From an uncultured Campylobacterales bacterium (lineage in GTDB: Bacteria > Campylobacterota > Campylobacteria > Campylobacterales > Arcobacteraceae), in assembly GCA_938084175.1 (NCBI GenBank), contig CALKDR010000007.1:1-60605 (forward strand): a stretch of 60,605 nt of DNA, read 5' to 3'. Positions 30,755-53,929 of the stretch are shown here, one piece after another. The position numbers were made by a program, and so were the translations under genes. Positions within the stretch are counted from its first letter, which is position 1; each line of letters opens with the position of its first letter. The notes below the pieces were generated by a model. It was not told the DNA's origin. It did not search any database and saw nothing but the letters and a program-made list of their open reading frames with translations.

Positions 30755-30796
30755 AACATTTTATCTATACTAAAAAACAAAAAAGCTTTGTATAAT
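30755..30796 (+). promoter_or_regulatory. Island promoter (site a) for ybgA-phr-lytTR unit
   Basis: AACATTTTATCTATACTA (30755-30772) is followed after 18 bases by a perfect TATAAT (30791-30796), 25 bases before the ybgA start. The same 18-base element with the same geometry precedes four other units of the island. Confidence 0.6.
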
Positions 30797-30821
30797 CAAG
30801 GATTAAAATTAAGGATTTATT

Positions 30822-31775
30822 ATGAAACTAGGTATTTCTTCTTGCCTTCTAGGTACAATGTGTAGATATGATGGGGGACACTCAAAAGATAAGTTTATCT
30901 TAGACCAACTAGGAAAATATTTTGACTTTGTTCCTTTTTGTCCTGAAAAAATGATTTTTACAACTCCTCGAGAAACAATAAGACTTACAACAAAAGATTC
31001 ACAAATTAGAGTAACAACTTCAAATACAAATGTTGATGTTACTGATAAATTAGAAAACATCTCTCAAGAACTAGTAGATGATATTCAAGAAAAACAATTA
31101 TGTGGATTCATTTTCAAGTCAAAATCACCAACTTGTGGAATGTCTAGAGTAAAAATATATCCTGAAAAAAGAGGTGGTCAGAGTGAAAACTCTGGTGTTG
31201 GTATTTTTGCAAATAAAGTAATGCAAAAACACCCTCTTCTTCCAACAGAAGAAGAAGGAAGACTAAACGACGCCTGGCTTCGAGAAAACTTTCTTATGCA
31301 AATTTTTGCATATAAGCATATGTATAAATTTTTAGATACAAATCCATCTTTTAATGAACTAGTTGCATTCCATACTTCTTATAAATACCTAATTTATGCA
31401 AAATCACATGAAGCATATAAAGAATTGGGACATATTGTTGCAAATCATGATAAAAAAGATTTAGAAGTAGTTTTAAATCAATATAAATACTGTTTTTTAA
31501 AAGCAATTTCAAAAAGAGGAACAATCTCAAATACATATAATGTAGTTTTACATATTTATGGATATTTTAAAAAACTTATTACAACTGAAGAAAAAGAAGA
31601 ATTATTAGAAGCATTTCAAGAGTTTAAAGATGAAATAATTCCTTTTATTGCAATAATCAAACTATTAAATCTTTATACAAAAAGATTTAATATTGAGTAT
31701 TTAAAATCACAAAAGTTCTTAAATCCTTACCCAAAAGAGCTTGCTTTAAGATCAACAGTATTGGCTTATAAATGA
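30822..31775 (+). CDS. YbgA-like DUF523/DUF1722 protein
   Basis: A 317-residue two-domain protein. The N-terminal DUF523 has ISSCLLGTMCRYDGG and later CGFIFKSKSPTCG. The C-terminal DUF1722 (YbgA) covers about residues 170-310 with AFHTSYKYLIYAKS. The biochemical role is unknown, but in E. coli ybgA is the upstream partner of phrB, and here too the photolyase gene follows with a four-base overlap. DUF523 cysteines (CxxxxxC near the N-terminus and CG further on) suggest metal or Fe-S binding; that is inference. A strong AAGGA precedes the ATG. Confidence 0.85.
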   Translation: MKLGISSCLLGTMCRYDGGHSKDKFILDQLGKYFDFVPFCPEKMIFTTPRETIRLTTKDSQIRVTTSNTNVDVTDKLENISQELVDDIQEKQLCGFIFKSKSPTCGMSRVKIYPEKRGGQSENSGVGIFANKVMQKHPLLPTEEEGRLNDAWLRENFLMQIFAYKHMYKFLDTNPSFNELVAFHTSYKYLIYAKSHEAYKELGHIVANHDKKDLEVVLNQYKYCFLKAISKRGTISNTYNVVLHIYGYFKKLITTEEKEELLEAFQEFKDEIIPFIAIIKLLNLYTKRFNIEYLKSQKFLNPYPKELALRSTVLAYK

Positions 31776-33118
31776 GTCAAATACTCTGGTTTAGAAGAGA
31801 TTTAAGAATAAGCGATAATGCAATACTTTGTAATGCTAAAGAAAAAGTATTGCCTATTTTTATTTTTGATAAAAATATTTTACAATCACTTCCAAAAGAT
31901 GATACAAGAGTTACTTTTCTTTATAAATCTGTATTAAAACTAAAAAATCAATTAAAAAGTATTGGCTTAGATTTAGCAATATTTTATGATGAACCTTTAA
32001 ATGTATTTAAAGATTTAAAACAAAAAGGTTTTGATGAAGTTTTATGTTCTGTTGATTTTGATTCTTATGCAAAAAAAAGAGATGAGCAAATTGAACAAGT
32101 ATTGCCTTTAAGAAGATTTCTTGATTCTTTTATTTTAAATCCAAACGAGCACTTGAAAAAAGATGGAACTCCTTATAAAGTGTTTACGCCTTTTTATAAA
32201 TCACTAAAAATGATTACAAGTTCAAGTAGTATAGAAGCTTTGAAAACAAATGAGAAATTAGAAAAAGTAGCTTTTGATTATGAGAAAACTCCAAGTTTAG
32301 AACAAATAGGATTTGAAGCTCAAAATCTTCCTGATTTTTTAAAAAAAGATGCTTTTGATTTATTAGATGATTTTAAGAAAAAAATTCATAATTATAAAGT
32401 AGATAGAGATTTTTTTCATATAAATGCAACATCAAATATATCAACTCACTTAAGATTTGGTTTAATATCACCAAAGCAAATATTTAACTATTTTAAAGCT
32501 TTTAATGACGAAAATAGTGAATTTTTTATAAGAGAAATATTTTGGAGAGAGTTTTATAATTATATTTTAGTTCATTATCCATACTCACAAACATCAAATT
32601 TTAACAAACTTGAAATGACATGGAATGAAAATGAAGATGATTTCCAAAAATGGTGTGAGGGAAAAACAGGTGTTCCTATTATTGATGCTGCTATGATTCA
32701 CTTAAATAACACAGGAACTATGCATAATAGATTAAGAATGGTAGTAGCTTCTTTTTTAACAAAAAACCTTTTTGTTGATTGGAAAAAAGGGGAGAAATAC
32801 TTTGCATTAAAACTTCTAGATTATGAAGCTTCTTCAAATATTGGAGGTTGGCAATGGGGTGCTAGTACAGGAGCTGATGCAAGCCCATACTTTAGAGTTT
32901 TTAATCCATATATTCAATCTAAAAAATTTGATAAAGATGGAATATTTATAAAAAGCGTTCTTCCTCAATTAAAAGAAATGGATGCAAAACTTTTTCATAT
33001 AGAAAATGGTGCATCTTCAAATTTATTTGTAGATTATCCAAAAAGTATTGTTGATATTTCACAATCAAGAAAACAAGCAATTGAAAAATTCAAAAGAGCA
33101 AAAAATGAAAACATCTGA
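31772..33118 (+). CDS. phrB: Deoxyribodipyrimidine photolyase (class I)
   Basis: A light-dependent repair enzyme for cyclobutane pyrimidine dimers, using FAD. The 448 residues begin with the antenna-domain motif LWFRRDLRISDNAIL. The FAD domain shows HLRFGLISPKQI, FWREFYNYIL, the sequence MIHLNNTGTMHNRLRM and NIGGWQWGASTGADA, with the Trp residues of the electron path. It is coupled to ybgA upstream, and the flavin desaturase gene starts inside its last codons. Confidence 0.94.
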   Translation: MSQILWFRRDLRISDNAILCNAKEKVLPIFIFDKNILQSLPKDDTRVTFLYKSVLKLKNQLKSIGLDLAIFYDEPLNVFKDLKQKGFDEVLCSVDFDSYAKKRDEQIEQVLPLRRFLDSFILNPNEHLKKDGTPYKVFTPFYKSLKMITSSSSIEALKTNEKLEKVAFDYEKTPSLEQIGFEAQNLPDFLKKDAFDLLDDFKKKIHNYKVDRDFFHINATSNISTHLRFGLISPKQIFNYFKAFNDENSEFFIREIFWREFYNYILVHYPYSQTSNFNKLEMTWNENEDDFQKWCEGKTGVPIIDAAMIHLNNTGTMHNRLRMVVASFLTKNLFVDWKKGEKYFALKLLDYEASSNIGGWQWGASTGADASPYFRVFNPYIQSKKFDKDGIFIKSVLPQLKEMDAKLFHIENGASSNLFVDYPKSIVDISQSRKQAIEKFKRAKNENI

Positions 33119-34544
33119 AATTAGAGATATAGCAGTTATTGGTTCAGGAATTGGTGGATCGTTAATAAGTGCATTAAATAAAGATAAAAATATAATACTT
33201 TTTGAAAAAGACAAAAACCTTGGTGGATGTGCAAGTACTTTTAAAAAGAATGGAAGATATTACAACGCAGGAGCTACAACTTTTGTAGGATATGAAGAAA
33301 ATCACCCTATAAAAAAGATATTTGATCACGCTGGATATATTCCTGATATCAAAAAAAGCGAAGTAGCTATTAGAATAATCCAAAACAATAAAGTCCTAGA
33401 TAGAGTGAAAGACTTTGATGCTTTCTTAGAAAACCTAAATGAAGTACATCCTCATAAAAATAACAAGATTTTTTGGAATAAAATAAGAGATATGGATGCA
33501 AGATTTTGGGAATTTAAAAATCTATATTTTGCAAAACATTCCTTAGATGCTTATATCAAAACAATTACTTCTAATATGCAACTTTTCACTATTTTTGGTT
33601 TTGATATTATTAAAAATGCAGACTCATACATAAATGAAGTTTTAACAGATATTTCACAAGATTATAAGAACTTTATTAATTCTCAGTTATTAATAACACT
33701 ACAAACTACATCAAATAATGTTTCTTTAATATCTTTAGCACTTGGATTATCTTATCCATTTCATGATGTATTTTATGTAAATGGCGGAATGGGAAGCTTA
33801 TTTGATGGTTTGTTAAAAGATATTGATGTTAAAGCTAAGGAAGAGATATTAAACATTAAAAAAGAGAAAGATTTTTTTAGAATCATTTCAAATAAAAATG
33901 AATACAAATCAAAAAAAGTGATTTTAAATAGTTCTACTTATGATAGTGCTGCTTTATTTGATGATGAAAGAATTAAAAAATATTATAATAGTTTTTCTTT
34001 TTCAGATCAAAGTGCTTTTGTAATTTATCTAAGCTTAGATAAAAAAAGTTTAAAAGAAGACTTTTTGCACCATTACCAAATAATATTAAATGAAAATATT
34101 CCAAATAGTATTTCAAACTCCTTTTTCATATCTTTTTCAAGTTTAAATGATGAAAAAATGACAAATGATTGTTATAGTATTACAATTTCAACACATTCAA
34201 AAGCTCTTTTTTGGAAAAATCTTCCACAAGAAAGTTATGAAAAACAAAAGAAAATCACTGAAGACTATATAATAAATGAGTTTTTAAAAAACTTCCAAAG
34301 TATTCAAAAAGAAGATATAAAAACTTGTATGAGTGGTACATCTAAAACCTTTAAAAGATATATAAATAGATATAATTGCGGTGGAAAAGCAATAACTATA
34401 AAAAATATTCTTCAAACAGCTTCTTGTAACACACCTTTTGAAGGTTTACATAATATTGGAGATACAGTATTTGCAGGTCAAGGATGGCCTGGAATTGCTT
34501 TAGGTGTTGAAGTTTTAAATAAGGAATTAAATGACAAGTGTTAA
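33105..34544 (+). CDS. FAD-dependent desaturase, phytoene dehydrogenase/CrtISO-like
   Basis: A 479-residue flavoprotein beginning with the dinucleotide fold IAVIGSGIGGSLI and ending with GDTVFAGQGWPGIALGVEV, the C-terminal FAD motif of the carotenoid desaturase/isomerase family. I chose the ATG at 33105, which overlaps the photolyase stop by 14 bases; an upstream TTG would only add residues overlapping the photolyase. No phytoene synthase is in the window, so a carotenoid substrate is not shown. A lipid or polyprenoid substrate under light stress is an alternative. Confidence 0.82.
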   Translation: MKTSEIRDIAVIGSGIGGSLISALNKDKNIILFEKDKNLGGCASTFKKNGRYYNAGATTFVGYEENHPIKKIFDHAGYIPDIKKSEVAIRIIQNNKVLDRVKDFDAFLENLNEVHPHKNNKIFWNKIRDMDARFWEFKNLYFAKHSLDAYIKTITSNMQLFTIFGFDIIKNADSYINEVLTDISQDYKNFINSQLLITLQTTSNNVSLISLALGLSYPFHDVFYVNGGMGSLFDGLLKDIDVKAKEEILNIKKEKDFFRIISNKNEYKSKKVILNSSTYDSAALFDDERIKKYYNSFSFSDQSAFVIYLSLDKKSLKEDFLHHYQIILNENIPNSISNSFFISFSSLNDEKMTNDCYSITISTHSKALFWKNLPQESYEKQKKITEDYIINEFLKNFQSIQKEDIKTCMSGTSKTFKRYINRYNCGGKAITIKNILQTASCNTPFEGLHNIGDTVFAGQGWPGIALGVEVLNKELNDKC

Positions 34545-35520
34545 ATTAAAAATATCAAAACTTGATTGGTTATATATTATAATAATTGGTGCATTTTTTG
34601 GTTTTTTCATTTCTTTGTTTTTATTTTTAATAAATAGTAATTTAAAAGAATTTTCAACAATATTTTATGGAACAAGCAGTGCTATATGTATATCTCTTAG
34701 TGCTTTTATTTTTATTACTATTTCAAACGATTTTATACTTCCAAAAATAAATGAAAAGTTTTGGTATATTATTAGTTTTACATTTTCATTTCTTTCAGGT
34801 TTTTTAGGCTTTGTAAGCTCCTACTTATTATTTTCCTTTTCAGATTATGCAATAATTGATTTTATAAGACCTATATGGTTTTATATTGCTATTATTATTG
34901 GATTTTTTACAGTTTTAATAGGACTTATTCTTCATCAGTTTATCTCAATGAAATATAAAAATGAATCAATTAAAAGTGAAGTACTTGAATCGAAAATAAA
35001 AGCTTTGGAAAATGAGCTTAATCCTCATTTTTTATTTAATGCTTTAAACTCAATTTCAGAGCTAATTTATCAAGACCAGAAAAAAGCCGAAAAAGCTACT
35101 CTTGATTTATCTGTATTTCTTAGAAATGCAATTACAAAAGATACTTTAATTACTTTAGATAGTGAAATCAAAATGGTTCAAACATATTTAACTATTGAAA
35201 ATATCAGATTTGAAGATAATATCAAAATGACTTTAGATATAAATAGCGATGATTTAAATATTATGGTTCCAAAGTTTTCTATTCAACTTTTAGTAGAAAA
35301 TGCAATAAAACATGGTTACTTACAAAAAGAATTAAATGTAAATGTCTTAGTTAAAAATAATACAATAGAAGTTAGTAACGATGGATTAATATCACAAAGT
35401 ATCAAATTTGGTACAGGTTTGAGTAATTTATCCACAAGATTAAAACTTTTAAAGATTGGATATTTGGATAAAAGAGTAGAAGATGATAAAATGATTTTCA
35501 TTATAAAATTAGAAGATTAA
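34531..35520 (+). CDS. LytS/YehU-type sensor histidine kinase
   Basis: A 329-residue membrane kinase. About four or five membrane helices fill residues 12-145 with no obvious extracellular sensor or LOV/PAS module. The kinase core has the His in ENELNPHFLFNALNSISEL (about residues 165-183), typical of the His_kinase family paired with LytTR regulators. The ATPase motifs are LLVENAIKHGY and GTGLSNLSTRL. It overlaps the desaturase gene by 14 bases and is followed after 17 bases by its likely partner regulator. Confidence 0.9.
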   Translation: MTSVKLKISKLDWLYIIIIGAFFGFFISLFLFLINSNLKEFSTIFYGTSSAICISLSAFIFITISNDFILPKINEKFWYIISFTFSFLSGFLGFVSSYLLFSFSDYAIIDFIRPIWFYIAIIIGFFTVLIGLILHQFISMKYKNESIKSEVLESKIKALENELNPHFLFNALNSISELIYQDQKKAEKATLDLSVFLRNAITKDTLITLDSEIKMVQTYLTIENIRFEDNIKMTLDINSDDLNIMVPKFSIQLLVENAIKHGYLQKELNVNVLVKNNTIEVSNDGLISQSIKFGTGLSNLSTRLKLLKIGYLDKRVEDDKMIFIIKLED

Positions 35521-35537
35521 AAAATTAAAGGATTAGA

Positions 35538-36260
35538 TTGAAAGTACTTATCGTAGATGATGAAAAACTAGCACTAAGCAGATTAAAAAGAATACTAAAT
35601 GAAGAAGGTATTTCAAATATTACAGATTGTAATAATCCAATTGATGCAGTAAAAGAAGCTACAAAAACAAAATTTGATGTAGCATTTTTAGATATTTCAA
35701 TGCCAACAATGAGTGGACTTGAACTTGCAAATATAATTTTGGAAATGAACCCAAATACTTTTATTGTATTTCAAACTGCTTTTGATGAGTATGCCTTAGA
35801 AGCTTTTAAAACAGGTGGTTTAGATTATTTATTAAAACCTATATCTAATGAAAGTATTTCTAAATCTTTACAAAAAATAGAAAAATTTATGAAAAAATCT
35901 CCACGAGAAACAAAAGAAACTTCTAAAAAAATTGTAGCAAAAAGAGGTTCAAAAATATATATGATTGATATTGACGATATTTATTATATAAAAGCTGATT
36001 TAGATGAAGTAATTATAAGAACAAAAGAAACAGATGCTTATGTAAGAAAAAAAATGCAAGATATGCAAGAGTTATTAAAAAACAAAAACTTTTTTAGAGT
36101 TCATAGATCATATATTGTAAATGTAGATAAGATTAAATCTATGAAAAGTGTTGAACAATCTAAATTAGAAATATCATTTATAAATATTGACGATATTGTA
36201 ACAAGTTCAAAAGATGGGGCAAAAGAGTTTAGAGAATATATAGAAGAGAGAACAGTTTAA
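35538..36260 (+). CDS. LytTR-family response regulator
   Basis: A 240-residue regulator. The receiver domain (1-120) has VDDEK, the phospho-acceptor Asp in DVAFLDISMP (about residue 54) and Lys in LDYLLKPIS. The C-terminal LytTR DNA-binding domain (about 135-238) has KRGSKIYMIDIDDIYYI, FFRVHRSYIVNVDKI and a final strand pair. It starts at TTG behind GGA. LytTR proteins bind direct repeats next to the -35 region. As the only DNA-binding regulator in the island it is the best candidate to act at the shared promoter element (inference). Confidence 0.92.
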   Translation: MKVLIVDDEKLALSRLKRILNEEGISNITDCNNPIDAVKEATKTKFDVAFLDISMPTMSGLELANIILEMNPNTFIVFQTAFDEYALEAFKTGGLDYLLKPISNESISKSLQKIEKFMKKSPRETKETSKKIVAKRGSKIYMIDIDDIYYIKADLDEVIIRTKETDAYVRKKMQDMQELLKNKNFFRVHRSYIVNVDKIKSMKSVEQSKLEISFINIDDIVTSSKDGAKEFREYIEERTV

Positions 36261-36296
36261 AGGCATTAACAAGATTAAATAACATTTTATATATAA

Positions 36297-36516
36297 ATGA
36301 ATTTATTAATTACAAAAAAAGAAAAACAATTAGATACAGAGTACAAAGAACACCTATTTATTGTTTTAATATCCTCACTTTTGATTACATTGATTTTTTT
36401 AATATAAGGAAAAACTTTTAGAAAAAGAAGTTATTAAATTTGAAGAAATGATGGAAGAATTAAACCTTATTTTGGATAACTTACCAATGATGATGATCTT
36501 TAAATATCTAAACTAA
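36297..36516 (+). pseudogene. Decayed membrane sensor kinase fragment
   Basis: Two short frames separated by a frameshift. 36297-36407 encodes a charged lead and one membrane helix (LFIVLISSLLITLIFLI). 36409-36516, in the next frame, encodes a coiled helix with EKEVIKFEEMMEELNLILDN and LPMMM, the classic start of a PAS domain after a sensor's second membrane helix. Everything downstream is gone. The 328-base gap between the regulator gene and the epimerase gene holds this remnant plus a promoter. Confidence 0.5.
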
Positions 36517-36555
36517 CATAAAACTACTACTAGTAATTCATACTTGTACTATACT
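36515..36555 (+). promoter_or_regulatory. Island promoter (site d) for epimerase unit
   Basis: AACATAAAACTACTACTA (36515-36532), identical to site c except for AAAA in place of TTTT, is followed after 17 bases by TATACT (36550-36555). The ATG of the epimerase gene lies 33 bases further on. Confidence 0.55.
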
Positions 36556-36588: not shown

Positions 36589-37449
36589 ATGAAAACAATA
36601 GCAATATCAGGTTCAAGTGGATTTGTTGGTACAAATTTAAAAAGAGTATTTGAATCTAAAGGTTTTAAAGTTCTTGGAATAAAAAGAGAAGAGTTACAAG
36701 ATATAAAAAAGCTAACATCAATTATGGATGAAGCGGATATTCTTATAAATCTAAGTGGTGCGAATATTATAAATAGATGGACGAATAAGTACAAAAAACT
36801 TTTAAAAAGCAGTAGATTAGATACTACAAAAGCATTAGTAAAAGCTATGCAAAATGCACAAAATAAACCTGAGCTTTTTATATCTACATCAGCTGTTGGT
36901 ATTTATAAAAATGATGCTTGCTATGATGAAGAAGATTATAAATATGAAGAAGACTTTTTATCAAATCTTTGTAAAGAATGGGAAGATGAAGCATTAAAAG
37001 CTAAGAACTCTGATATTAGAACCGTGATTTTTAGATTTGGAATTGTTTTAGGTGATGGAGGAGCAATGCAAAAAATGATGACACCATTTAAATTAGGACT
37101 TGGTGGAATTATTGGTAATGGTAAACAAGATTTTTCTTTTATACATATTGATGATTTAACAAATGCTTATGAACATGTATACAAAAATAGTGATTGTGAG
37201 GGGATTTATAACCTAACAGCTCCAAATCCTACAGATAACTATAGATTTACAAAAGCATTAGGAAAAGCACTTAAAAGACCAACTGTATTACCTATTCCTG
37301 AGTTTGTGTTTAATCTAATATTTAGTGAAGGTGCAAAAGTTTTAACACAAGGACAATGTGTTCATCCTAAAAGGTTGCAAAAAAGTGGTTTTAAATTTAA
37401 ATTTGAAACTATAAACGAAGCTGTTTTAAACATAGTAAAAAAGGACTAG
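36589..37449 (+). CDS. TIGR01777 family NAD-dependent epimerase/dehydratase (YfcH-like)
   Basis: A 286-residue extended SDR. The cofactor motif is ISGSSGFVGTNLKRVF (residues 4-19). The active-site Ser/Tyr region is FISTSAVGIYKND, where the usual YxxxK is YGN-like. IFRFGIVLGDGGAMQKM and the C-terminal DUF1731-like VHPKRLQKSGFKF are diagnostic of the YfcH/SulA-type family. AAGGAG lies seven bases before the start. It is paired with an SRPBCC gene, as in other photolyase-linked clusters. Confidence 0.88.
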   Translation: MKTIAISGSSGFVGTNLKRVFESKGFKVLGIKREELQDIKKLTSIMDEADILINLSGANIINRWTNKYKKLLKSSRLDTTKALVKAMQNAQNKPELFISTSAVGIYKNDACYDEEDYKYEEDFLSNLCKEWEDEALKAKNSDIRTVIFRFGIVLGDGGAMQKMMTPFKLGLGGIIGNGKQDFSFIHIDDLTNAYEHVYKNSDCEGIYNLTAPNPTDNYRFTKALGKALKRPTVLPIPEFVFNLIFSEGAKVLTQGQCVHPKRLQKSGFKFKFETINEAVLNIVKKD

Positions 37450-37451
37450 AT

Positions 37452-37904
37452 GTGAGAACATTTGAAAAAACTACACTTATAAATTGTGAAATACAAAAGC
37501 TTTTTGATTTTCATACAAATATGAAAAACTTAGAAGCTATAACACCTTTAAATGTAGATATAGAATTATTAAATAAAGACTTTGTTCCCCATGAAGGCGG
37601 AGTTATTAAAATAAAAACTGTTAAAAATTTTATCCCTACAACATGGGAAGTTAAGATTGAAAAATTGCAAAGTCCAAATCTTCTTGTTGATATTGCATTA
37701 AAATCTCCTTTTAAATTTTGGGAGCATTCTCATATTTTTACAAAGAAAGGTTCATTGTGTGAATTAAAGGATGTAGTAAGATATAAGTTACCTTTTGGTA
37801 AATTTGGAGAGTTATTTGATTTTCTTATACAAAAAGAGCTAAAGGGTATGTTTGATTATAGACATAAAATTACAAAAGGCCTTTTAGAAGAGAAAAAAAT
37901 ATAA
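37452..37904 (+). CDS. SRPBCC/START-like lipid-binding protein
   Basis: A 150-residue soluble protein of the polyketide cyclase/START-like fold. The opening FEKTTLINCEIQKLFDFHTN and later FKFWEHSHIFTKKG and LKDVVRYKLPFGKFG match the cyclase/dehydrase family that is often fused or adjacent to TIGR01777 epimerases. It starts at GTG two bases after the epimerase stop. Such proteins bind hydrophobic ligands; the ligand is unknown. Confidence 0.82.
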   Translation: MRTFEKTTLINCEIQKLFDFHTNMKNLEAITPLNVDIELLNKDFVPHEGGVIKIKTVKNFIPTTWEVKIEKLQSPNLLVDIALKSPFKFWEHSHIFTKKGSLCELKDVVRYKLPFGKFGELFDFLIQKELKGMFDYRHKITKGLLEEKKI

Positions 37905-37907
37905 AAC

Positions 37908-37949
37908 AACAAATTTACCATACAAACAAACTTGGTAAATAAATATAAT
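37908..37949 (+). promoter_or_regulatory. Hairpin and weak island-type promoter upstream of hemH (site f)
   Basis: ATTTACCA (37913-37920) and TGGTAAAT (37933-37940) form an eight-base stem with a 12-base loop. The same stretch carries AACAAATTTACCATACAA (37908-37925), a partial match to the island element, with TATAAT (37944-37949) 18 bases further on. It could be a terminator/attenuator, an operator or a divergent copy of the island promoter. Confidence 0.35.
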
Positions 37950-37970
37950 ACTAATAAAAAAAGGAATATT

Positions 37971-38918
37971 TTGAAAAAAGCAGTTGTACTAATGAATATG
38001 GGTGGTCCAAATAACATAGATGAAGTTGAAGTTTTTTTGAAAAATATGTTTAATGATAAATATATTATTGGTGCACCGCAACCAATTCGTGCAATGATTG
38101 GATTATTAATCACTACTCTAAGAAAAAAAGAAGCAAAAGAAGGTTACTCAGAACTTGGCGGAATGTCTCCAATTGTTGGTCATACAAAAAGATTAGTTAG
38201 ACGACTGAATAAAACTCTTGATGCAGATGTTTTTTACAAAATGAGATATACACCACCTTATGCAAAAGATGTTTTAGAAGATTTACGAGATTATGATGAG
38301 ATTTATGCAATTCCAATGTATCCTCATTATTCATTAACTACAACAAAATCATCAATTGAAGAGCTTCAAAAATGGGCTAAAAAATTAAAAATTAAAGCTA
38401 AGATTAAAACACTAGATTCTTTTTATGACAATGAAGATTTAAATAAAGCAATAGTTGAGAGAATTAAAGAGCAAATAAGTGATGTAGACAGCGAAGAATA
38501 TGAGTTATTATTTTCAGCTCACGGATTACCTCAAAGAAATATTGATAAAGGTGATCCATATAAGGATCATATTTTAAAAAATGTTGAATGTGCAAAAAAA
38601 GAGCTTGAAAAGCAAGGTATTAAATTCAAAAAAATTCATGTGGCTTACCAATCTAGACTAGGACCAGTTGAATGGATGAAACCTTATATGGATGTTACAC
38701 TTCAAGCAATGAAAGGTAAAAAAGTACTTGTTTACCCTCTTTCATTTACAGTTGATAACTCAGAGACTGAATATGAACTTTCAATTGAATATAAAGAGAT
38801 TGCTGAGGAAGTAGGAATTGCTGATTATAGAGTTGCAAAAGCTCCAAATCATGGTGAATATTTTATGAAAACAATTAAACATTTATATGAAAATGAATGT
38901 AATATAGAAGTAAGTTAA
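37971..38918 (+). CDS. hemH: Ferrochelatase
   Basis: Inserts iron into protoporphyrin (or coproporphyrin) at the end of haem synthesis. The 315 residues begin KKAVVLMNMGGPNNIDEVE. FSAHGLPQRNIDKGDPY carries the catalytic His, followed by VAYQSRLGPVEWMKPY and the conserved Glu of the second half. I chose the TTG at 37971, with AAAGGA upstream, over a TTG 13 codons earlier that lacks a binding site. Its presence inside the photolyase island is notable, because free porphyrins are photosensitisers. Confidence 0.93.
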   Translation: MKKAVVLMNMGGPNNIDEVEVFLKNMFNDKYIIGAPQPIRAMIGLLITTLRKKEAKEGYSELGGMSPIVGHTKRLVRRLNKTLDADVFYKMRYTPPYAKDVLEDLRDYDEIYAIPMYPHYSLTTTKSSIEELQKWAKKLKIKAKIKTLDSFYDNEDLNKAIVERIKEQISDVDSEEYELLFSAHGLPQRNIDKGDPYKDHILKNVECAKKELEKQGIKFKKIHVAYQSRLGPVEWMKPYMDVTLQAMKGKKVLVYPLSFTVDNSETEYELSIEYKEIAEEVGIADYRVAKAPNHGEYFMKTIKHLYENECNIEVS

Positions 38919-38935
38919 AAGTACAAAGGTATTAA

Positions 38936-39817: not shown

Positions 39818-39821
39818 GAAT

Positions 39822-42513: not shown

Positions 42514-42514
42514 G

Positions 42515-44876: not shown

Positions 44877-44905
44877 AATTTATCCTTTTTGCTTTTTGGG
44901 CTTTT

Positions 44906-46137: not shown

Positions 46138-46177
46138 TTTATAACTTTTCTTTGAAAGTTAGTAGTAGAAAAATGTT
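46138..46177 (-). promoter_or_regulatory. Island promoter (site c) for COG3380 unit
   Basis: On the minus strand AACATTTTTCTACTACTA (46177-46160) is followed after 16 bases by TATAAA (46143-46138), 21 bases before the start codon. It matches site b at 13 or more of 18 positions with identical spacing. Confidence 0.6.
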
Positions 46178-46206
46178 AGTTTGTAAGATATTACTTAGAT
46201 AAAAGT

Positions 46207-47035: not shown

Positions 47036-47566
47036 TTAATCTTTAATTATAGTAATAACAAGCTCACCCACAGTAAATCCAAACTTTTTCATTTTTGAGT
47101 GGTTAATTATTACTCCATCTTCCTGTAAATGAAGCCAATCTTTTACTGAAATATTTATAGTGCTATCATTATATGGTACTTCCATTACATAGTCAATCAT
47201 TACAGTATTCCCATTTGCTTGCATTTTTGCAGTGCCAACTATATCACCCGCGCTTGCATCAAAAGTTTTCTTTCCTGTTGGTTTTAACTTCCACACTCTA
47301 GTTAATTTTTCACCATCATCATAAACAAACTTTTCATCTAAAGTTCCAATACCATTTTCGTCCCATGAACCAACTAGTTCACCTTTGAATGTTCTGATTA
47401 TTTTTCCACTTCTATCTTTCACTAAGCCATAAGCTCGTAAGCTTCCATTGAAATATTCTTGTGGAATAAATTCTGGACCTTTATTTTCGAAATCTTCTAT
47501 TTGCATTTTTGAACATCCTGTAAAAATTAAAAATATAAAGCTTAAAAGTAGAAGTTTTACACTCAT
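47036..47566 (-). CDS. DUF3833 lipoprotein
   Basis: A 176-residue lipoprotein (signal ending LIFTGCSKM, lipidated Cys about residue 18). The mature part has YFNGSLRAYGLVKDRSGKII and RVWKLKPTGKKTFDASAGD, characteristic of DUF3833. Members are regularly next to CFA-type methyltransferase, DUF1365 and COG2907 genes. The gene overlaps the methyltransferase by four bases. The function is unknown; an envelope role connected with lipid modification is inferred from the operon. Confidence 0.85.
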   Translation of the reverse strand: MSVKLLLLSFIFLIFTGCSKMQIEDFENKGPEFIPQEYFNGSLRAYGLVKDRSGKIIRTFKGELVGSWDENGIGTLDEKFVYDDGEKLTRVWKLKPTGKKTFDASAGDIVGTAKMQANGNTVMIDYVMEVPYNDSTINISVKDWLHLQEDGVIINHSKMKKFGFTVGELVITIIKD

Positions 47567-48789
47567 GCTACTAAACCAGAGTTTAATGCCGTGTTTTGGT
47601 ATCTTGTAAATGCAACTTGAACAAGGTTTATATTTCTTGTTAAAAATGCTGCTTCACAATAACAAAGGTACATTTTCCACATTCTAATAAAATAGTCATC
47701 AAAACCTAAGTTTTTAACATGTTCTATTTTTGCATTAAAGTTTTCATGCCAAATATTTAATGTTTTTGCATAATGCTCTGTAAACTCCTCCATATGAAGA
47801 AGATTTAATTTTGTATTTTTGCTTGTAACATCTAGAATTTTTCCAACACTAGGAAGGTGTCCACCTGGGAAAATATACTTTTGAATAAAATCTGTTCCCT
47901 TACAATATGCACTATATCTTTGGTCTGGCATTGTGATTATTTGCATTACTAAAACTCCACTTGGCTTTAGTAACTCCTCACATTTTTTAAAGAATACATC
48001 AAAATACTCACGTCCAACAGCTTCAAACATTTCAACTGCAATTACTGCATCAAACTGTCCTTGCATATCTCTATAATCTTTCAATAAAACATTTACAGAT
48101 TCTTCAATATTATGCTCTTTAAATCTACCTTCACAAAGCTTCTTTTGCTCTTTTGATAGTGTTAAAGTAGTAACTTCACATCCATATTCTTTTACTAAAT
48201 GCATAGCCATAGCACCCCAACCTGAGCCAATTTCAAGTACTTTTGAACCTTTTTTAAGATTTAGTTTTTTTGCTAAGATATCTATTTTTCTTTTTTGAGC
48301 TTCATATAAAGGCTCATCTGGATTTTCAAATACAGCTGAAGAGTACATCATTGTATCATCTAAAAATAATTCGAAGAAATCATTTGATAAATCATAATGT
48401 TCTTGAATATTTTTTTGTGAACGAGTTTTTGAATTTTTTCGCAAAGAGTGCTTTAATTTATTGGCCATTGGAAATAAATTATGTAAAGAGAACTTTTTAG
48501 CATCTTCACTTTTTGTTTCTAAAGCTTGAGAGTTCATAATTCCTATTTTGATTAATGCAGTTAAATCATCACATTCAAAATCTTTATCCATATAAGATTC
48601 AGCAAATCCAATATCACCGTATAATGTTAATCTTCTAAACAAATCTGCATTATTTAATACAAGCTTTGCCTTTGGTTCTTGATTATTTCCATATACTTTT
48701 TTTGTGCCATCACTAAAAGTTACGTCCAATGTTCCTTCTGTGATTTTTGATAAATATTGATCACCTAATTTATTCCATAAAGTCTTCAT
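47563..48789 (-). CDS. Cyclopropane-fatty-acyl-phospholipid synthase family methyltransferase
   Basis: A 408-residue SAM-dependent enzyme that methylates unsaturated acyl chains of membrane lipids. The N-terminal domain (1-110) is followed by the SAM site VLEIGSGWGAMAMHLVKEYG (about residues 180-200), then VEMFEAVGREYFD and the lipid-site motif DFIQKYIFPGGHLPS. The family includes true CFA synthases and the Ufa-type enzymes that add a plain methyl group en route to furan fatty acids. With COG2907 and DUF1365 in the same operon, the second role is possible. It lies two bases after DUF1365. Confidence 0.9.
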   Translation of the reverse strand: MKTLWNKLGDQYLSKITEGTLDVTFSDGTKKVYGNNQEPKAKLVLNNADLFRRLTLYGDIGFAESYMDKDFECDDLTALIKIGIMNSQALETKSEDAKKFSLHNLFPMANKLKHSLRKNSKTRSQKNIQEHYDLSNDFFELFLDDTMMYSSAVFENPDEPLYEAQKRKIDILAKKLNLKKGSKVLEIGSGWGAMAMHLVKEYGCEVTTLTLSKEQKKLCEGRFKEHNIEESVNVLLKDYRDMQGQFDAVIAVEMFEAVGREYFDVFFKKCEELLKPSGVLVMQIITMPDQRYSAYCKGTDFIQKYIFPGGHLPSVGKILDVTSKNTKLNLLHMEEFTEHYAKTLNIWHENFNAKIEHVKNLGFDDYFIRMWKMYLCYCEAAFLTRNINLVQVAFTRYQNTALNSGLVA

Positions 48790-48791
48790 AA

Positions 48792-49532
48792 TTATGCCCT
48801 CCTTACTTGGTCTTGCTCTGTTGGCTTATTCCATTTTAAGCCTTTTAATTTAAGTTTTAAACTTTGCCATATTGTTCTTGTAACCACTAATATTGTTAAT
48901 AAAAAATGTCTAAAAAACAGTCTTTGTACATTTGATTCATTAAATTCCAATGACTTTCCAACTAGTGTTGTTGTTAACATTTTTATATCTTTTTCAAAAA
49001 GAACAATTCCTAATGAAAAATTATCTTCTTCATATTTTAGTGAAAAATCGTATCTTCCAACAGATTCGAAAAAAGGTGAAACATACATATCTTTTTCGCC
49101 TATTCCTTTATAATGTATATTGTCTTTTGTTTCCAATTTCACACAATAAACAATTCTTCCTCCATTATAATTATGAACCTCAGCTAACATATAATTAGGC
49201 TTGCCTTCTTTAAAAAGAATCAACATACTAATAGGGTTAAATACAAAACCTACAATACTAGGTAGTGTGATAAATCTCGTTTTATTTGTTTCTTCTATTT
49301 CATACTTTTTTAGTAAGTCTTTTATATTTTTCCTAAAGTCCCTACTCTCTCCAAAATGATCTTTTGTATTAAAAGAAAAAAGATTAAAACTATTTTTTGA
49401 AAAGTACTTATTTTCAAGTTCCTCAAATGAATTCATATCAATATCGAGCATAAAAAATTTATATTTGAAATCGTGCTTTTTAGGGCTTACTCTTTTGTGA
49501 TATATCATTCCTTCTTGGAACTTATGACTCAC
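48792..49532 (-). CDS. DUF1365 family protein
   Basis: A 246-residue protein opening GMIYHKRVSPKKHDFKYKFF with FMLDID and later LPSIVGFVFNPISMLILF, diagnostic for DUF1365. It overlaps the COG2907 gene by four bases and precedes the methyltransferase gene by two. These three genes form a recurring cassette in light- and singlet-oxygen-induced loci of other proteobacteria. The biochemical activity is not established. Confidence 0.88.
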   Translation of the reverse strand: MSHKFQEGMIYHKRVSPKKHDFKYKFFMLDIDMNSFEELENKYFSKNSFNLFSFNTKDHFGESRDFRKNIKDLLKKYEIEETNKTRFITLPSIVGFVFNPISMLILFKEGKPNYMLAEVHNYNGGRIVYCVKLETKDNIHYKGIGEKDMYVSPFFESVGRYDFSLKYEEDNFSLGIVLFEKDIKMLTTTLVGKSLEFNESNVQRLFFRHFLLTILVVTRTIWQSLKLKLKGLKWNKPTEQDQVRRA

Positions 49533-50794
49533 AATTCACATCCAAACTCTTGTGCAATTGTATTTGCAGAATATAGTCCATCTTCATGAAAACCATATCT
49601 CCAATAAGCGCCTGCAAAATATGTGTTATTTTTTCCATTTATAACAGATCTTTTGCTTTGTGCTTCAATTGCCTTCCTATCAAACTGTGGATGCTCATAT
49701 GAAATTTTTTCTATTACTTCATTTACTTCTTGCGTTTCATTTAAAGAGACAAAATAGTCTTTTTGTGATTTTAAATTTTGTAATCTATTAATCCAATAAG
49801 ACAAAGTTACATTTTCATCGTTTTTATTATCATTAGAATTAGTTTTATAATTCCAAGCTGCATATACATCTTTATCTGGATATAAAGCATTTTTATCTGT
49901 GTGCAATAGTGCTTTGTTTTCTTTATATTCAAAATTTGATAATATATTTAATTCATCAATTGTTGGTTCATCAAGTAGTTGTAAAGCATCAGGTGCATGC
50001 ATGGCAAAAATAACTTTGTCATAAATAGTTCTAGTATTGTCATTATGTACTAACATAACTTTATCATCTTCTCTCTCTACATTTATAACATCACTATTTT
50101 TTATAATATTACCTGAAATTCTCTTTGATATTTTATTAACATAGTTTATTGAACCACCGCTTACTGTTAACCATTGGTGTTGTGTATCAATTCCTAATAA
50201 TCCATGATTTTTAAAAAAGTGTAAGAATGTACGTGCGGGAAAATCATTCATTTTATCACTAGGAGTTGACCATATAGAAGCACCCATTGGAATAATATAT
50301 CTTTGTATAAAGTAAGACGAATAGTCTTTTAAATATTCACCCAAAGATAAATCTAAATCTGTGCTGTTTGTATCTAAATCGTTATTTGCTTTTTTATTAA
50401 ATTTTAAAATATCACTAATCATTTTCAGATGAGAATAAGATAATAGATTTTTCTTTTGAAAAAACATCCCTTTTAAAGATTCTCCATTATAAGCTAGATT
50501 TGTTTTTTGGTTCCAAAAAGCAAAACTCATATCACTATTTTCTATTTTTACATTAAGTTCTTCAAAAAGTTTTGTCAATAGTGGATATGTTTCATGATTA
50601 AAAACTAGGAAGCCTGTGTCTACTCCAAAAGTATTATTATTTTCTGTAATTTGAGTAGTTCTTGCATGGCCACCTAGTCTGTTTTCTTTTTCGTATAAAT
50701 CAACATCATGTTTTTTACTCAATAAGTAAGCTGAACCTAATCCGCTTATTCCTGCGCCTAAAACAGCAATTTTCAATTTTTTCTCATTTTTCAT
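49529..50794 (-). CDS. FAD-dependent oxidoreductase, COG2907
   Basis: A 421-residue flavin amine-oxidase-like protein. KIAVLGAGISGLGSAYLLS is the nucleotide fold, followed by YEKENRLGGHARTT and GVDTGFLVFNHETYPLL, diagnostic of COG2907. The C-terminus GAYWRYGFHEDGLYSA holds the second FAD contact. In related loci the enzyme acts with the CFA-like methyltransferase on phospholipid acyl chains. It is coupled to lipocalin upstream and DUF1365 downstream by four-base overlaps. Confidence 0.9.
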   Translation of the reverse strand: MKNEKKLKIAVLGAGISGLGSAYLLSKKHDVDLYEKENRLGGHARTTQITENNNTFGVDTGFLVFNHETYPLLTKLFEELNVKIENSDMSFAFWNQKTNLAYNGESLKGMFFQKKNLLSYSHLKMISDILKFNKKANNDLDTNSTDLDLSLGEYLKDYSSYFIQRYIIPMGASIWSTPSDKMNDFPARTFLHFFKNHGLLGIDTQHQWLTVSGGSINYVNKISKRISGNIIKNSDVINVEREDDKVMLVHNDNTRTIYDKVIFAMHAPDALQLLDEPTIDELNILSNFEYKENKALLHTDKNALYPDKDVYAAWNYKTNSNDNKNDENVTLSYWINRLQNLKSQKDYFVSLNETQEVNEVIEKISYEHPQFDRKAIEAQSKRSVINGKNNTYFAGAYWRYGFHEDGLYSANTIAQEFGCEL

Positions 50795-51336
50795 TTATAT
50801 ATTCCTTGCTTATCTTGTGGCGTGTAAATTAATTTTGATGTATCCATGTATTTTTTTAAAAACACAACAATGTTATCAAGCTTTTCTTTTTTCATAAAAG
50901 GTTTTCTGTGCATGATCCAAACTGTCTCAAAGTTTGTATCAACTAACACTGCTGTTTCGTATTGTTCATTTTGTTCATCTAAATAAATTATTTTATATTC
51001 TTTTGTAAATATCCAGAAATATGTCATATCAAGTTCTGACATGTTATTTCCATTTGATGCTATGGCTGTACCATTAAACTGGATTAATTTGCCATCCATC
51101 GTTTTATCAAAACATCTGTTCTTGATGTCATACTTGAAAGGTTCTATAAGTGTGTATTCAACACTTGCTGCTACACAGTCTTTTTCAAAACTGTTATATG
51201 TTCTTGCAATTTCATACCATAAGCCACTAAATTTTTTAGCATTTGTATAATCAACGGGCTTAGGTGATGAAGCGTATACAAGAGAAGTTTGAGCTATAAC
51301 CATGGTAATAAAAAAAGATAGTATATTTAATTTCAT
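50791..51336 (-). CDS. Periplasmic lipocalin family protein
   Basis: A 181-residue lipocalin with a cleavable signal (residues 1-22, ending VYASS) and no lipobox. The signature is FSGLWYEIARTYNSFEKDC, followed by VEYTLIEPFKYDIKNRC and YETAVLVDTNFETVWIMHR. It is clearly paralogous to the lipoprotein lipocalin at 42515-43054. It is the first gene of the COG2907-DUF1365-CFA-DUF3833 operon, fitting a lipid-carrying role. Confidence 0.9.
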   Translation of the reverse strand: MKLNILSFFITMVIAQTSLVYASSPKPVDYTNAKKFSGLWYEIARTYNSFEKDCVAASVEYTLIEPFKYDIKNRCFDKTMDGKLIQFNGTAIASNGNNMSELDMTYFWIFTKEYKIIYLDEQNEQYETAVLVDTNFETVWIMHRKPFMKKEKLDNIVVFLKKYMDTSKLIYTPQDKQGIYK

Positions 51337-51358
51337 CTCAAACTCCTTCTAATGTCAT

Positions 51359-51398
51359 TTTATATTTATTTGAAGAATTTTAGTAGGATAAAAATGTT
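51359..51398 (-). promoter_or_regulatory. Island promoter (site b) for lipocalin-CFA operon
   Basis: On the minus strand AACATTTTTATCCTACTA (51398-51381) is followed after 16 bases by TATAAA (51364-51359), 22 bases before the lipocalin start, with AGAAGGAG as ribosome binding site. Confidence 0.6.
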
Positions 51399-51423
51399 GC
51401 TTTATCAAAAAAACATAAGAAGT

Positions 51424-52689
51424 TTATGATTTTTGGTCTTTATATTTGTTAATAAAATATATAGAAACAATCTTTAGACAAACAGGGATAAAGCCATAAA
51501 ATAACGATAATACAAATAAGGAGCTAGAACTTGGATTAGAAACCTCAAAATCAAAAACTCCAAGAATTATAAAACTAAAAGCAACAGCTATTGCTAGGGT
51601 GAATTTTGTAATCATTGTCCAAATACCAAAAAGTAAACCTGATATATTAATATTAAGACTTTTTGTTTTTTGAACTAAATCACTTTGTATTGCTGTAGGT
51701 AGCGCCATATCAGCACCTAGTGAGAAGCCTGATATTATGCTAATAACTATAAAAGCATTTAAATCACCTTCTTGTAAAAAAGGAACAAAAGCAAAAGCAC
51801 TTGATGCTAAAAGTATTGATGATATCCAAGCTTTTTTCTTTCCAATTTTATTAGAAAGTTTATACCAAAAAGGAAGAGCAAGCACTCCTGATAAAAAATA
51901 TAATATTAATACCATTCCACTTGATTGCTTTTCTTGTATTACTAATTCTACAAAAAGTAAAAATAAAGTTGCAGGAAGTGCGTTAGCTAGATTATTCAAA
52001 AAGTAGCCAATTTGTAAGAATTTTAAATCGCCAAAATTCTTATAAACCTCTTTGATACTTTTAAAACTAAACTTTGTACTTTTAACTTTTGTAGTAATTT
52101 TTATAGTATTCATACTAAGTAAAAATAAGGGGATGAAAAGTATTAGAAAAGAAATATATAGGATATTCAAAGTTTCTTGTGGGTTTTGGGATACATTATA
52201 AATAAAAGGAACAAGCAAGGCTATTAAAACTCCTACAATAGCAAGCAACTCTCTTGAACTATTTAAAATTGTTTTATCTTCGTATTTTTCACTGATTTCA
52301 CTACTCCATGTTAAATATGGGATATTAATCATACTCCAAGCTGCGTATATTAAAACAGAAAAAACAAAAAGCCAAATTTTTGCATATTGTAAATTTGGAT
52401 TTATAAGAGCATAAAAACTTAGTATTAAAATTATAGAACCTATAATCATTATAGGTTTTCTACTTGAAAAAACCTCAAGACTTTTATCACTTAAATATCC
52501 AAAAAATGGATCAGTGAATACATCTGTTAATCTTGCTATAAATAGTATCAAACCTACAAGTGCTACATTTATTCCTACATCACTTACATAAAAAGTTGGC
52601 AAATAAATATATAAAGGAAGTCCAACAATTGCCAAAGGAATTGCTAATAAACTATAATAAATTATTGTCTTTTTATTTAATGCTTTCAT
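51424..52689 (-). CDS. MFS/GPH-type membrane transporter
   Basis: A 421-residue transporter with twelve predicted helices. Segments such as VGLPLYIYLPTFYVSDVG near the N-terminus, RLTDVFTDPFFGYLSD (the GPH-type D.xDP..G.L.D motif) and INIPYLTWSSEIS resemble the glycoside-pentoside-hexuronide:cation symporter family. Homologues occur in the light-stress lipid cassettes of other bacteria, where a lipid or lipid-linked substrate has been suggested; that is inference. It follows the NTF2-like gene by one base and lies next to the lipocalin promoter. Confidence 0.85.
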   Translation of the reverse strand: MKALNKKTIIYYSLLAIPLAIVGLPLYIYLPTFYVSDVGINVALVGLILFIARLTDVFTDPFFGYLSDKSLEVFSSRKPIMIIGSIILILSFYALINPNLQYAKIWLFVFSVLIYAAWSMINIPYLTWSSEISEKYEDKTILNSSRELLAIVGVLIALLVPFIYNVSQNPQETLNILYISFLILFIPLFLLSMNTIKITTKVKSTKFSFKSIKEVYKNFGDLKFLQIGYFLNNLANALPATLFLLFVELVIQEKQSSGMVLILYFLSGVLALPFWYKLSNKIGKKKAWISSILLASSAFAFVPFLQEGDLNAFIVISIISGFSLGADMALPTAIQSDLVQKTKSLNINISGLLFGIWTMITKFTLAIAVAFSFIILGVFDFEVSNPSSSSLFVLSLFYGFIPVCLKIVSIYFINKYKDQKS

Positions 52690-52690
52690 T

Positions 52691-53110
52691 TTAATTTTTG
52701 ATTTTTCTTTTAATTAGTTTTATGAAAAAAGAAAGAATAGGTATTTTTTCATATACATTTTCTCCTGCATCCCAATAATCTATATGAGATATAGCTTTTT
52801 TATTTTTATCAAATTCAACCCTACTAAGACCTTCAAATGAGTTTTCTAATGAGTCGTTTTTAAAATTATATTTAAAAGTCCATTTTAAATATGCAATACT
52901 ATTTTGCTCTATTATTTCAATAACTTTAAATCTAGGATTATCAAGCTTTTCATACATATCTTGAAATATCTCATATATTTCTTCTATTCCTACAACTTCA
53001 TTAAAAGGATCTTTGAATCTTGCATTTAAATCAAATATTTCTTTATACTCTTCTATTGGCGTTTCTTTTTTAATATTTTCAAAAAATAAGGCATATTTTT
53101 TTGTACTCAT
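52691..53110 (-). CDS. NTF2/SnoaL-like protein
   Basis: A 139-residue protein with the cone-shaped NTF2-like pattern: an N-terminal helix, LNARFKDPFNEVVG and IEEIYEIFQDMYEKL, then strands with WTFKYNFKND and FEGLSRVEFD, ending HIDYWDAGENVYEKIP. The typical active-site-like His-Ile-Asp-Tyr-Trp near the end is seen in SnoaL-like members of photolyase clusters. Substrate and activity are unknown. It overlaps the SDR gene by four bases. Confidence 0.8.
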   Translation of the reverse strand: MSTKKYALFFENIKKETPIEEYKEIFDLNARFKDPFNEVVGIEEIYEIFQDMYEKLDNPRFKVIEIIEQNSIAYLKWTFKYNFKNDSLENSFEGLSRVEFDKNKKAISHIDYWDAGENVYEKIPILSFFIKLIKRKIKN

Positions 53111-53868
53111 GGAATCATCCTTTTTGTAAGATATAAAGACATTTTATAAGGCATGATTTTTAACATGCTTAAAAATGAAGCAAGTAAAAATGGAAATCTT
53201 ATTTCAAAGGACTTTGGGTTTTGAATTCCTTCAAAAATCTTTTCTGCTGTAAACTTTGGCTGCATTAGTTGTGGCATTTCAAATTTATTTTTATCTGTTA
53301 ATCTTGTTTTTACAAAACCATGATTTATAATTTGAAGGTCAATTTTCAATAAGTCTAATTCAGGTTGAATTGATTGTGCAAGATTAACTAAAGCAGCTTT
53401 TGGTGCAGAATACCCACCACCTTGTGGTAAACCAAAAGAAGATGATAAACTAGAGTTCCAAACCCAGTGACCTCTTTTTTGTTTTTTAAAATAAGGTAGA
53501 AGCTCACTCATTAATCTTATAACACCTAAATAATTAACTTCATTCATTTCTTCAAACTTTTCAATATTCCATTCATTTATACTCATAACCTCATAAGCAC
53601 CTGCATTATAAAACCAAATATCTAAACCTTCATATGTATTCCAAGCCTCATTTACACAATTATGAATCTTTTCTTTTGAAGAAACATCTATATCAATTAA
53701 TTTAATTTTTTCTTGGTATTCATCTTTTAGCATTAGTAATGAATCATTTTTTGTAGCATTTCTAGAACTAGCAATTACATAATAATTTGACTCAAGGCAT
53801 AGTTGTACTAACTCTAAACCAATACCAGTGCTGCCACCTACTATCCAAATTCTTTTATTTTCTTGCAC
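53107..53868 (-). CDS. Short-chain dehydrogenase/reductase
   Basis: A 253-residue SDR. The cofactor motif is WIVGGSTGIGLELVQL (residues 8-23), followed by the NAG motif FYNAGAYEV, the catalytic Ser in WNSSLSSSFGLP and YSAPKAALV with catalytic Tyr and Lys. The hydrophobic C-terminal region (about residues 215-245) may associate with the membrane. It heads the SDR-NTF2-MFS unit. Element e and a TATTAT -10 lie just upstream. Confidence 0.88.
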   Translation of the reverse strand: MQENKRIWIVGGSTGIGLELVQLCLESNYYVIASSRNATKNDSLLMLKDEYQEKIKLIDIDVSSKEKIHNCVNEAWNTYEGLDIWFYNAGAYEVMSINEWNIEKFEEMNEVNYLGVIRLMSELLPYFKKQKRGHWVWNSSLSSSFGLPQGGGYSAPKAALVNLAQSIQPELDLLKIDLQIINHGFVKTRLTDKNKFEMPQLMQPKFTAEKIFEGIQNPKSFEIRFPFLLASFLSMLKIMPYKMSLYLTKRMIP

Positions 53869-53888
53869 ATTCTTGCCTTTTTATTTAT

Positions 53889-53929
53889 ATAATAGTTATT
53901 TTATATATTTTTTGTAGAAGAATACTGTC
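53889..53929 (-). promoter_or_regulatory. Island promoter (site e) for SDR-NTF2-MFS unit
   Basis: On the minus strand GACAGTATTCTTCTACAA (53929-53912) is a weaker copy of the island element (13 of 18 positions as in site c), followed after 17 bases by TATTAT (53894-53889), 20 bases before the start. A conventional reading (TTGACA at 53931 with TATATA 18 bases on) is also possible. Confidence 0.45.

Follow-up and report, generated by a model that had tools for sequence, protein, structure and literature searches.

Here we describe a promoter element that precedes six transcription units of a gene island in an uncultured Campylobacterales bacterium (Arcobacteraceae). The window, i.e. the whole stretch that was analysed, comprises 60,605 nucleotides of contig CALKDR010000007.1 (assembly GCA_938084175.1). 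The full element is about 33 bp long and consists of two imperfect 12-bp direct repeats of the form TAYnAAnnRACA with 9 bp between them, such that the period is 21 bp. It is real and larger than the 18-base element that a first-pass annotation of this DNA had described. On sequence grounds we consider it to be the operator-promoter of one regulon, most likely bound and activated by a LytTR response regulator from the island that would be phosphorylated by a membrane kinase encoded directly upstream. We assign this reading a probability of roughly 0.73.

The motif was obtained from 40 stretches of 6.7-20 kb each, all of them from other genomes, in which the island homologues had been mapped. 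An expectation-maximization search without starting motif in 236 upstream regions of island-type genes provided a single motif, TTATnAACtRACA-N8-cTACwAAA, which was present in 95 of these regions. After near-identical copies had been dropped, 79 sites remained for training a position weight matrix (PWM); two of them come from locus L112, which lies outside the family. Scoring the window with this matrix gave six top sites at 19.8-23.9 bits followed by a next best match at 8.9 bits; removing the two L112 sites left the same six in front, at 19.7-24.1 bits, with the next match at 8.6 bits. In 20 Markov-simulated windows the best score was 13.8 bits on average and 19.8 bits at maximum. Five window sites thus beat every simulated score and the weakest merely equals the simulated maximum. 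When the gene family in question was excluded from the matrix, every window site still ranked 3rd to 6th within the window, with 22.6 bits for the site before the ferrochelatase gene hemH (element 3 in Table 1) and 19.6 bits for the one before the SDR gene (element 6).

Four of the five sites listed in the first-pass annotation match the shared 18-mer AACATN9ACTA exactly (30755+, 36515+, 46177- and 51398-). The fifth, 53929- (GACAGTATTCTTCTACAA), breaks that formula but is recovered by the fuller motif at 19.8 bits. The geometry claimed for these sites was reproduced: -10-like boxes follow after 18, 17, 16, 16 and 17 bp (16-18 claimed), the fifth box being only TATTAT, and the start codons after 67, 74, 61, 62 and 61 bp (61-74 claimed). 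That one element links the island units agrees with the PWM scores and with the enrichment in relatives described below; the number of sites is, however, six rather than five, since the hit at 37899+ before hemH had been missed. This site has the best score of the window and overlaps the stop codon of the preceding gene. Neighbouring operons within the window lack the element, as had been stated.

The host assembly (1.74 Mb, 85% complete) was scanned as a whole with exact patterns and in parts with the PWM. For AACATN9ACTA, 6 exact matches are found in the window against 1.37 expected, four of them being the sites named above; the other two, 31056+ and 55310-, are ruled out as element sites by the PWM. 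All three exact matches of AACATN7CTACTA in the assembly lie within the 60-kb window. If one mismatch is allowed, this pattern occurs at chance level genome-wide (69 matches vs 62 for the reversed control), such that only exact or PWM scoring is informative. The strict pattern AACTRACAN9TACWAA is exact at one of the six window sites (element 4) and nowhere else in the host genome, so that the element is underestimated by counting this pattern; allowing one mismatch gave 11 matches in the host genome, four of them inside the window, vs 12 for the control. Outside the window, host locus L134 scores 14.1 bits. Chance similarity in AT-rich intergenic DNA, which the behaviour of the simple 18-mer with one mismatch might suggest, is hardly credible in view of the PWM ranking, the enrichment with held-out families and the co-occurrence with the regulator presented below, and also of sites being kept in two loci of 44-45% GC (L212, L215).

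Self-alignment of the element gave a best offset of 21 bp for the 79 sites as well as for 19 sites from 10 other loci. For offsets 20-24 this corresponds to p = 0.015 and 0.008, respectively; the 20-24 range was known beforehand from PMC4847170 (literature statements here and below rest on excerpts of the cited papers), while its choice as the test, the 12-bp unit and the wider columns came after a first result of p = 0.11. In the second repeat copy the ACA end is less well kept, most markedly among the 79 sites. The layout can be read as 9+12+9, yet conservation extends over units of 12 bp, which leaves 9 bp between them. The CTACTA block does lie at the -35 position, as first proposed, but forms the start of the second repeat, and AACAT as a separate activator box did not hold up: the 18-mer reaches from the last part of the first repeat into the beginning of the second. 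An inverted-repeat reading of the element found no support (p = 0.84). A TATAAT-like box (5 or 6 of 6 positions) is located 16-18 bp past the TACwA part in 59 of the 79 non-redundant sites, with ties settled towards 17. Provided that transcription starts 7 bp past the -10 box, the second repeat would span about -35 to -22. LytTR sites have been described as two repeats of 9-11 nt with a separation of 11-13 (PMC4847170).

The first-pass annotation had called for an enrichment scan in related genomes. This was carried out at a threshold of 14 bits, with the judged gene family excluded from the PWM and a gap defined as at least 50 bp. The element was found before the same gene families and rarely before non-island genes: after a gap, 82 of 107 island genes had a site vs 5 of 154 non-island genes, with internal genes at 1/247 and 3/177, respectively. 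Three of the five non-island positives are phasin-like small proteins, whose host homologue belongs to the 46116-43338 unit; the remaining two are a glutathione peroxidase near a regulator gene and an EAL protein. Two island-type families mostly lack a site after a gap (ABC1 0/7, thiD 3/8). The idea of a regulon encoded at one locus fits the host as judged by exact patterns, but relatives also carry the element before regulon-type genes elsewhere. In G004-G007, homologues of the 45178-46116 gene (43-46% identical) lie on other contigs and have kept the element, so that it seems to travel with the gene, and the regulon of relatives is not confined to a single locus. Further off-island elements (L153:3194, L144:3291, L147:2874, L158:3372) precede genes that by eye resemble those for pyridoxamine phosphate oxidase, phasin-like and CbiX-like proteins. 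In 6 of 20 off-island stretches (L145, L157, L159, L160, L161, L163) the matches lay inside coding frames and were read as chance.

The candidate reader of the element is encoded by the last gene of the first island unit, preceded by a histidine kinase gene. In a structure model of the kinase (mean pLDDT 83.8, pTM 0.57) four long N-terminal helices are seen, the last of which runs into the kinase core; judged by eye, these are probably membrane helices. No soluble sensor domain was found in the kinase. A structural search with the model returned, among the best 50 of 561 matches, kinases and related proteins without a clue to the signal, and a PDB sequence search with the regulator, among the best 60 of 194, mostly receiver-domain matches. 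Homologues of the CrtI-like oxidoreductase, the kinase and the regulator occur together in 23 of 23 regulator loci, and L217 has no CrtI-like gene in view. This oxidoreductase accompanies the kinase and the regulator more often than the photolyase does, and may make or destroy the signal.

Proposing the LytTR pair as reader is based on the repeat period, which suits LytTR proteins, and on the co-occurrence of element and regulator. The latter was determined across 104 family genomes, with presence of the regulator defined by E-values of 1e-40 or better. Of the 72 genomes that have the regulator, 51 contained exact AACTRACAN9TACWAA, vs 3 of the 32 that lack it (Fisher's exact test, 2.8e-9, relatedness ignored). 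The total number of matches was 97 vs 3, compared to 29 vs 28 for the reversed control. Counted by genus, the element is present in 11 of 12 with the regulator and in 1 of 8 without. Also within mixed genera, matches concentrated in regulator-bearing genomes in g10 (16/27 vs 0/4), g6 (2/3 vs 1/5), g2 (2/2 vs 0/2) and g11 (2/2 vs 0/2); g19 gave 13/15 vs 1/1. The three regulator-less matches are L163, where the match lies inside a coding frame, G127 and G138. Among the 32 genomes without the regulator, six have a photolyase; no motif score in these six loci exceeds 8.0 bits. None of 36 loci from regulator-less genomes reached 15 bits, with gene sets that differ from those of the positive loci.

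A scan with an alignment of the regulator provided 45 loci, many of them from Arcobacteraceae (Poseidonibacter, Halarcobacter, Arcobacter, Aliarcobacter, Malaciobacter) and several from metagenome-assembled genomes labelled Sulfurovum or Sulfurospirillum, plus the partial matches L224 and L225. A site of at least 15 bits was present in 40 of the 45, several of these being genomes that had supplied the PWM. Of the 13 loci not labelled Arcobacteraceae, L224 being excluded, nine score at least 15 bits (L201, L203, L204, L207, L208, L212, L214, L215, L222), and L206, L213, L217 and L219 stay below. The L222 match is not before an island gene; in the other positive loci of this group the sites precede rudS, phr, crtI, kinase, thiD, epimerase or hemH genes. 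L219 is truncated, and L206 belongs to the genome behind the two L112 sites of the PWM. In L221, from Malaciobacter halophilus, no 15-bit site was found despite the regulator. Several Aliarcobacter-type loci (L193:8822, L195:8827, L210:8827, L197:2936, L199:1449) carry an extra match of 16.7-19.7 bits that falls within the kinase gene, some 170-315 bp ahead of the regulator gene; it could represent an internal promoter or reflect conservation of the coding sequence.

A number of observations weigh against the proposed regulon and its reader. The relatives of the enrichment test are the same loci that, with other gene families, supplied the PWM. The repeat signal is modest: over all offsets p is 0.07 for the 79 sites and 0.04 for the 19 sites, and the first direct-repeat test, likewise over all offsets, gave the above-mentioned p = 0.11, with 21 already as best offset (the 79-site set without L112 gives p = 0.017 for offsets 20-24 and 0.08 for all offsets). 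LytTR repeats usually end upstream of the -35 position (PMC6193735), and a LytTR site over the -35 box has been described for a repressor, CoxC (PMC11347149). No exact match was found in 21 of the 72 regulator-bearing genomes, and G138, the one regulator-less genome of g19, has one. An island-type hemH (67-69% identical) is retained in three genomes of a single genus that lack the regulator; nearby scores are 14.6, 8.9 and 12.4 bits and perhaps represent decayed sites. Five of the 45 regulator-anchored loci have no 15-bit site, including L206, where the lipid genes and crtI-kinase-regulator are present, and in the host itself L020, outside the window, scores 15.5 bits with no visible -10 box. 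Related genomes are, furthermore, not independent, and since the regulator is itself an island gene, its co-occurrence with the element could reflect inheritance of the whole island.

Alternatively, the element may be a genuine regulon operator whose reader is unlinked to the island, either a further response regulator or a global regulator, with the kinase/LytTR pair being only a member of the regulon. The link to LytTR is correlative and the regulator gene lies inside a regulated operon. We nevertheless regard such a reader as unlikely: the element tracks LytTR across genera, also in G018, G019, G035 and G010, in which the search gave no close homologue of COG2907, the period of the repeats agrees with LytTR proteins, and the island proteins scanned include no other DNA-binding regulator. 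(The COG2907-type protein was searched for in 100 genomes, host included, and the island LytTR regulator in 61.)

According to the favoured LytTR mechanism, the kinase would phosphorylate the regulator, which in turn would bind both repeats and recruit RNA polymerase to promoters without a usable -35 box. The second repeat would occupy the -35 position of a sigma-70-type promoter, in which TATAAT is the only recognisable box. Since the element heads the rudS-phr-crtI-kinase-regulator operon, a self-amplifying circuit would result. The element, its geometry, its enrichment and its co-occurrence with the regulator are observed; that the regulator binds, that it activates rather than represses, that it switches on its own operon and what the system responds to (light, singlet oxygen or lipid damage) are inferred. 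In a variant compatible with a LytTR-read operator, the regulator would sit as a repressor over the -35 position and be relieved by light or oxidative damage. The second repeat does overlap this position, repression from repeats that extend over -35 has been described for CoxC, itself a LytTR protein (PMC11347149), and LitR represses comparable genes in the dark (PMC9758184). On the other side, no conserved -35-like sequence exists beyond the repeat, such that the promoters should be weak without help, and the near-fixed distance to TATAAT suits an activator that contacts the polymerase. Neither argument is decisive, and repression is to be taken seriously, as less probable than activation but more probable than an unlinked reader.

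Similar gene sets are controlled elsewhere by ECF11-ChrR and LitR (PMC6852236, PMC9758184, PMC5241685), which raises the question of whether the element is a promoter of an extracytoplasmic function (ECF) sigma factor or a MerR/LitR operator. The ECF11 sigma-E/ChrR singlet-oxygen regulon of Rhodobacter, Vibrio and Shewanella shares photolyase, cfa-type/furan lipid and ferrochelatase genes with the island (PMC6852236, PMC5241685, PMC6664582), and in the LitR/MerR light regulon of Pseudomonas the PhrB, UfaM, CryB and RudS genes are under LitR-type regulators (PMC9758184, PMC11417400). Searches for Sigma70_r2 and MerR_1, in 61 genomes each (ChrR was not searched for), revealed four Sigma70_r2 proteins in the congener G009 and MerR proteins of 213-242 amino acids in several element-bearing genomes, e.g. 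G006, G009 and G027. In contrast, a single, RpoD-sized Sigma70_r2 match was found in the host (640 amino acid frame, assembly 85% complete) and in each of five complete congeners (G001-G004, G006), with frames of 622-644 amino acids, and the host MerR_1 matches lie only in frames of 134 and 117 amino acids. G014 has the regulator and the element with no MerR_1 match and one Sigma70_r2 match. Moreover, the -10 box resembles that of sigma-70 promoters, and the element, a direct repeat, shows no inverted symmetry and is not of the TGTACA type. Control by either factor is therefore very improbable. In G034, a complete regulator-less genome with a photolyase, eight Sigma70_r2 matches were found, in contrast to most element-bearing relatives; an ECF sigma factor may therefore control the photolyase there.

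Among known systems, the LytS/LytTR regulons (e.g. E. coli YpdAB) likewise have a His_kinase-type kinase adjoining a LytTR-domain response regulator; direct repeats that occur in pairs close to the promoter and recur after about 21 bp would be a further common trait, if the element is read as above. E. coli BtsSR and S. aureus AgrCA are further pairings of this kind. The proteins of the island differ from these, the BtsR model staying below its cut-off; here the repeats are read as 12 bp long with a conserved ACA end, the promoter-near repeat overlaps -35 and the targets look photoprotective. In CO oxidation, CoxC/RcoM likewise combines a LytTR protein with direct repeats over the -35 box, but there three 8-bp repeats serve a repressor, a single protein with its own sensor domain (PMC11347149). 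Searches of the open-licence literature on LytTR regulators in connection with photolyase or singlet oxygen, and on Arcobacter in connection with LytTR, photolyase, light or singlet oxygen, listed no title or abstract opening in which the present system is described.

Table 1. Promoter elements, -10-like boxes and genes of the island (window coordinates; scores from the PWM).
Feature	Position	Strand	Remarks
Element 1	30747..30779	+	23.8 bits; before rudS-phr-crtI-histidine kinase-response regulator; first-pass site 30755
-10-like TATAAT	30791..30796	+	element 1; spacer 18
Element 2	36507..36539	+	23.5 bits; before epimerase/SRPBCC unit; first-pass site 36515
-10-like TATACT	36550..36555	+	element 2; spacer 17
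Element 3 (hit 37899+)	37900..37932	+	23.9 bits; before hemH
-10-like TATAAT	37944..37949	+	element 3; spacer 18
Element 4	46153..46185	-	22.6 bits; before 46116-43338 unit; first-pass site 46177
-10-like TATAAA	46138..46143	-	element 4; spacer 16
Element 5	51374..51406	-	21.6 bits; before lipocalin-COG2907-DUF1365-cfa-DUF3833, then thiD; first-pass site 51398
-10-like TATAAA	51359..51364	-	element 5; spacer 16
Element 6 (weakest)	53905..53937	-	19.8 bits; before SDR-SnoaL-MFS; first-pass site 53929
-10-like TATTAT	53889..53894	-	element 6; spacer 17; ambiguous
DUF523 + DUF1722 protein	30822..31775	+	PF04463 + PF08349; domain make-up of RudS
DNA photolyase	31772..33118	+	Pfam match; NCBIfam photolyase models below cut-offs
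CrtD/CrtI-like flavin oxidoreductase	33048..34544	+	NCBIfam below cut-off; true start may be near 33108
His_kinase-family histidine kinase	34531..35520	+	PF06580 2e-23
LytTR response regulator, proposed element reader	35538..36260	+	PF00072 2.4e-24, PF04397 2.7e-23; best NCBIfam BtsR, well below cut-off
Epimerase, SRPBCC, ferrochelatase (hemH), NMT1/THI5-like, DPRP, DASH cryptochrome, lipocalin	36589..43054	+	domain/family matches, SRPBCC excepted
NAD_binding_8 protein, phasin-like small protein (weak match), ABC1 kinase-like protein	43338..46116	-	domain matches
Lipocalin, amine-oxidase-type protein, DUF1365, cfa-type methyltransferase, DUF3833	47036..51336	-	domain matches
SDR, SnoaL-like, MFS transporter	51424..53868	-	domain matches

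The gene set of the island looks to be directed at photo-oxidative defence, because it contains a photolyase, a DASH cryptochrome, DPRP, a protein with the domains of RudS, cfa-type and adjoining lipid genes of the furan/cyclopropane type, a ferrochelatase and lipocalins (Table 1); the homologues may have the same roles here. The SRPBCC protein was matched by no Pfam family, so that its name is tentative, and the COG2907 label of the amine-oxidase-type protein is one that we take over from the first-pass annotation. DUF523 plus DUF1722 is the make-up of RudS, a tRNA 4-thiouridine (s4U) desulfidase whose genes are often found in light-responsive operons (PMC11417400). UfaM belongs to the light-induced genes in Pseudomonas (PMC9758184), furan lipid genes are part of the ECF11 core regulon (PMC6852236) and Shewanella hemH2 is linked to RpoE2 (PMC6664582). 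The island ferrochelatase is of a distinct type: island copies of hemH (37971-38918) in relatives are 66-90% identical, and the best matches in the 32 regulator-less genomes are mostly at 39-49%, with three at 67-69%. Thiamine-type genes are found in or beside island units (NMT1/THI5-like, 38936-39817; thiD, 46207-46992), and thiD has its own element in L107, L127, L128, L162 and L204.

If the LytTR reading is correct, it would provide a new job for the LytTR family and establish the uncharacterised island as a regulon in which six promoters are defined, with a motif that would find further members in many genomes. It would also open to experiment the question of how genes resembling a defence against singlet oxygen and light are regulated in a bacterium that apparently has neither an ECF sigma factor nor LitR. 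Tentatively, and with less confidence than for the favoured mechanism, Campylobacterota may have rewired the photo-oxidative regulon, which is under ECF11-ChrR or LitR in Proteobacteria, onto a membrane LytS-type kinase and a LytTR regulator, using class-II direct-repeat promoters at every target, the sensor genes included. Together with the linked CrtI-like enzyme, this may allow direct sensing of membrane or carotenoid/lipid photodamage. If the kinase does sense membrane photodamage, the pair would constitute a simple two-protein sensor for it.

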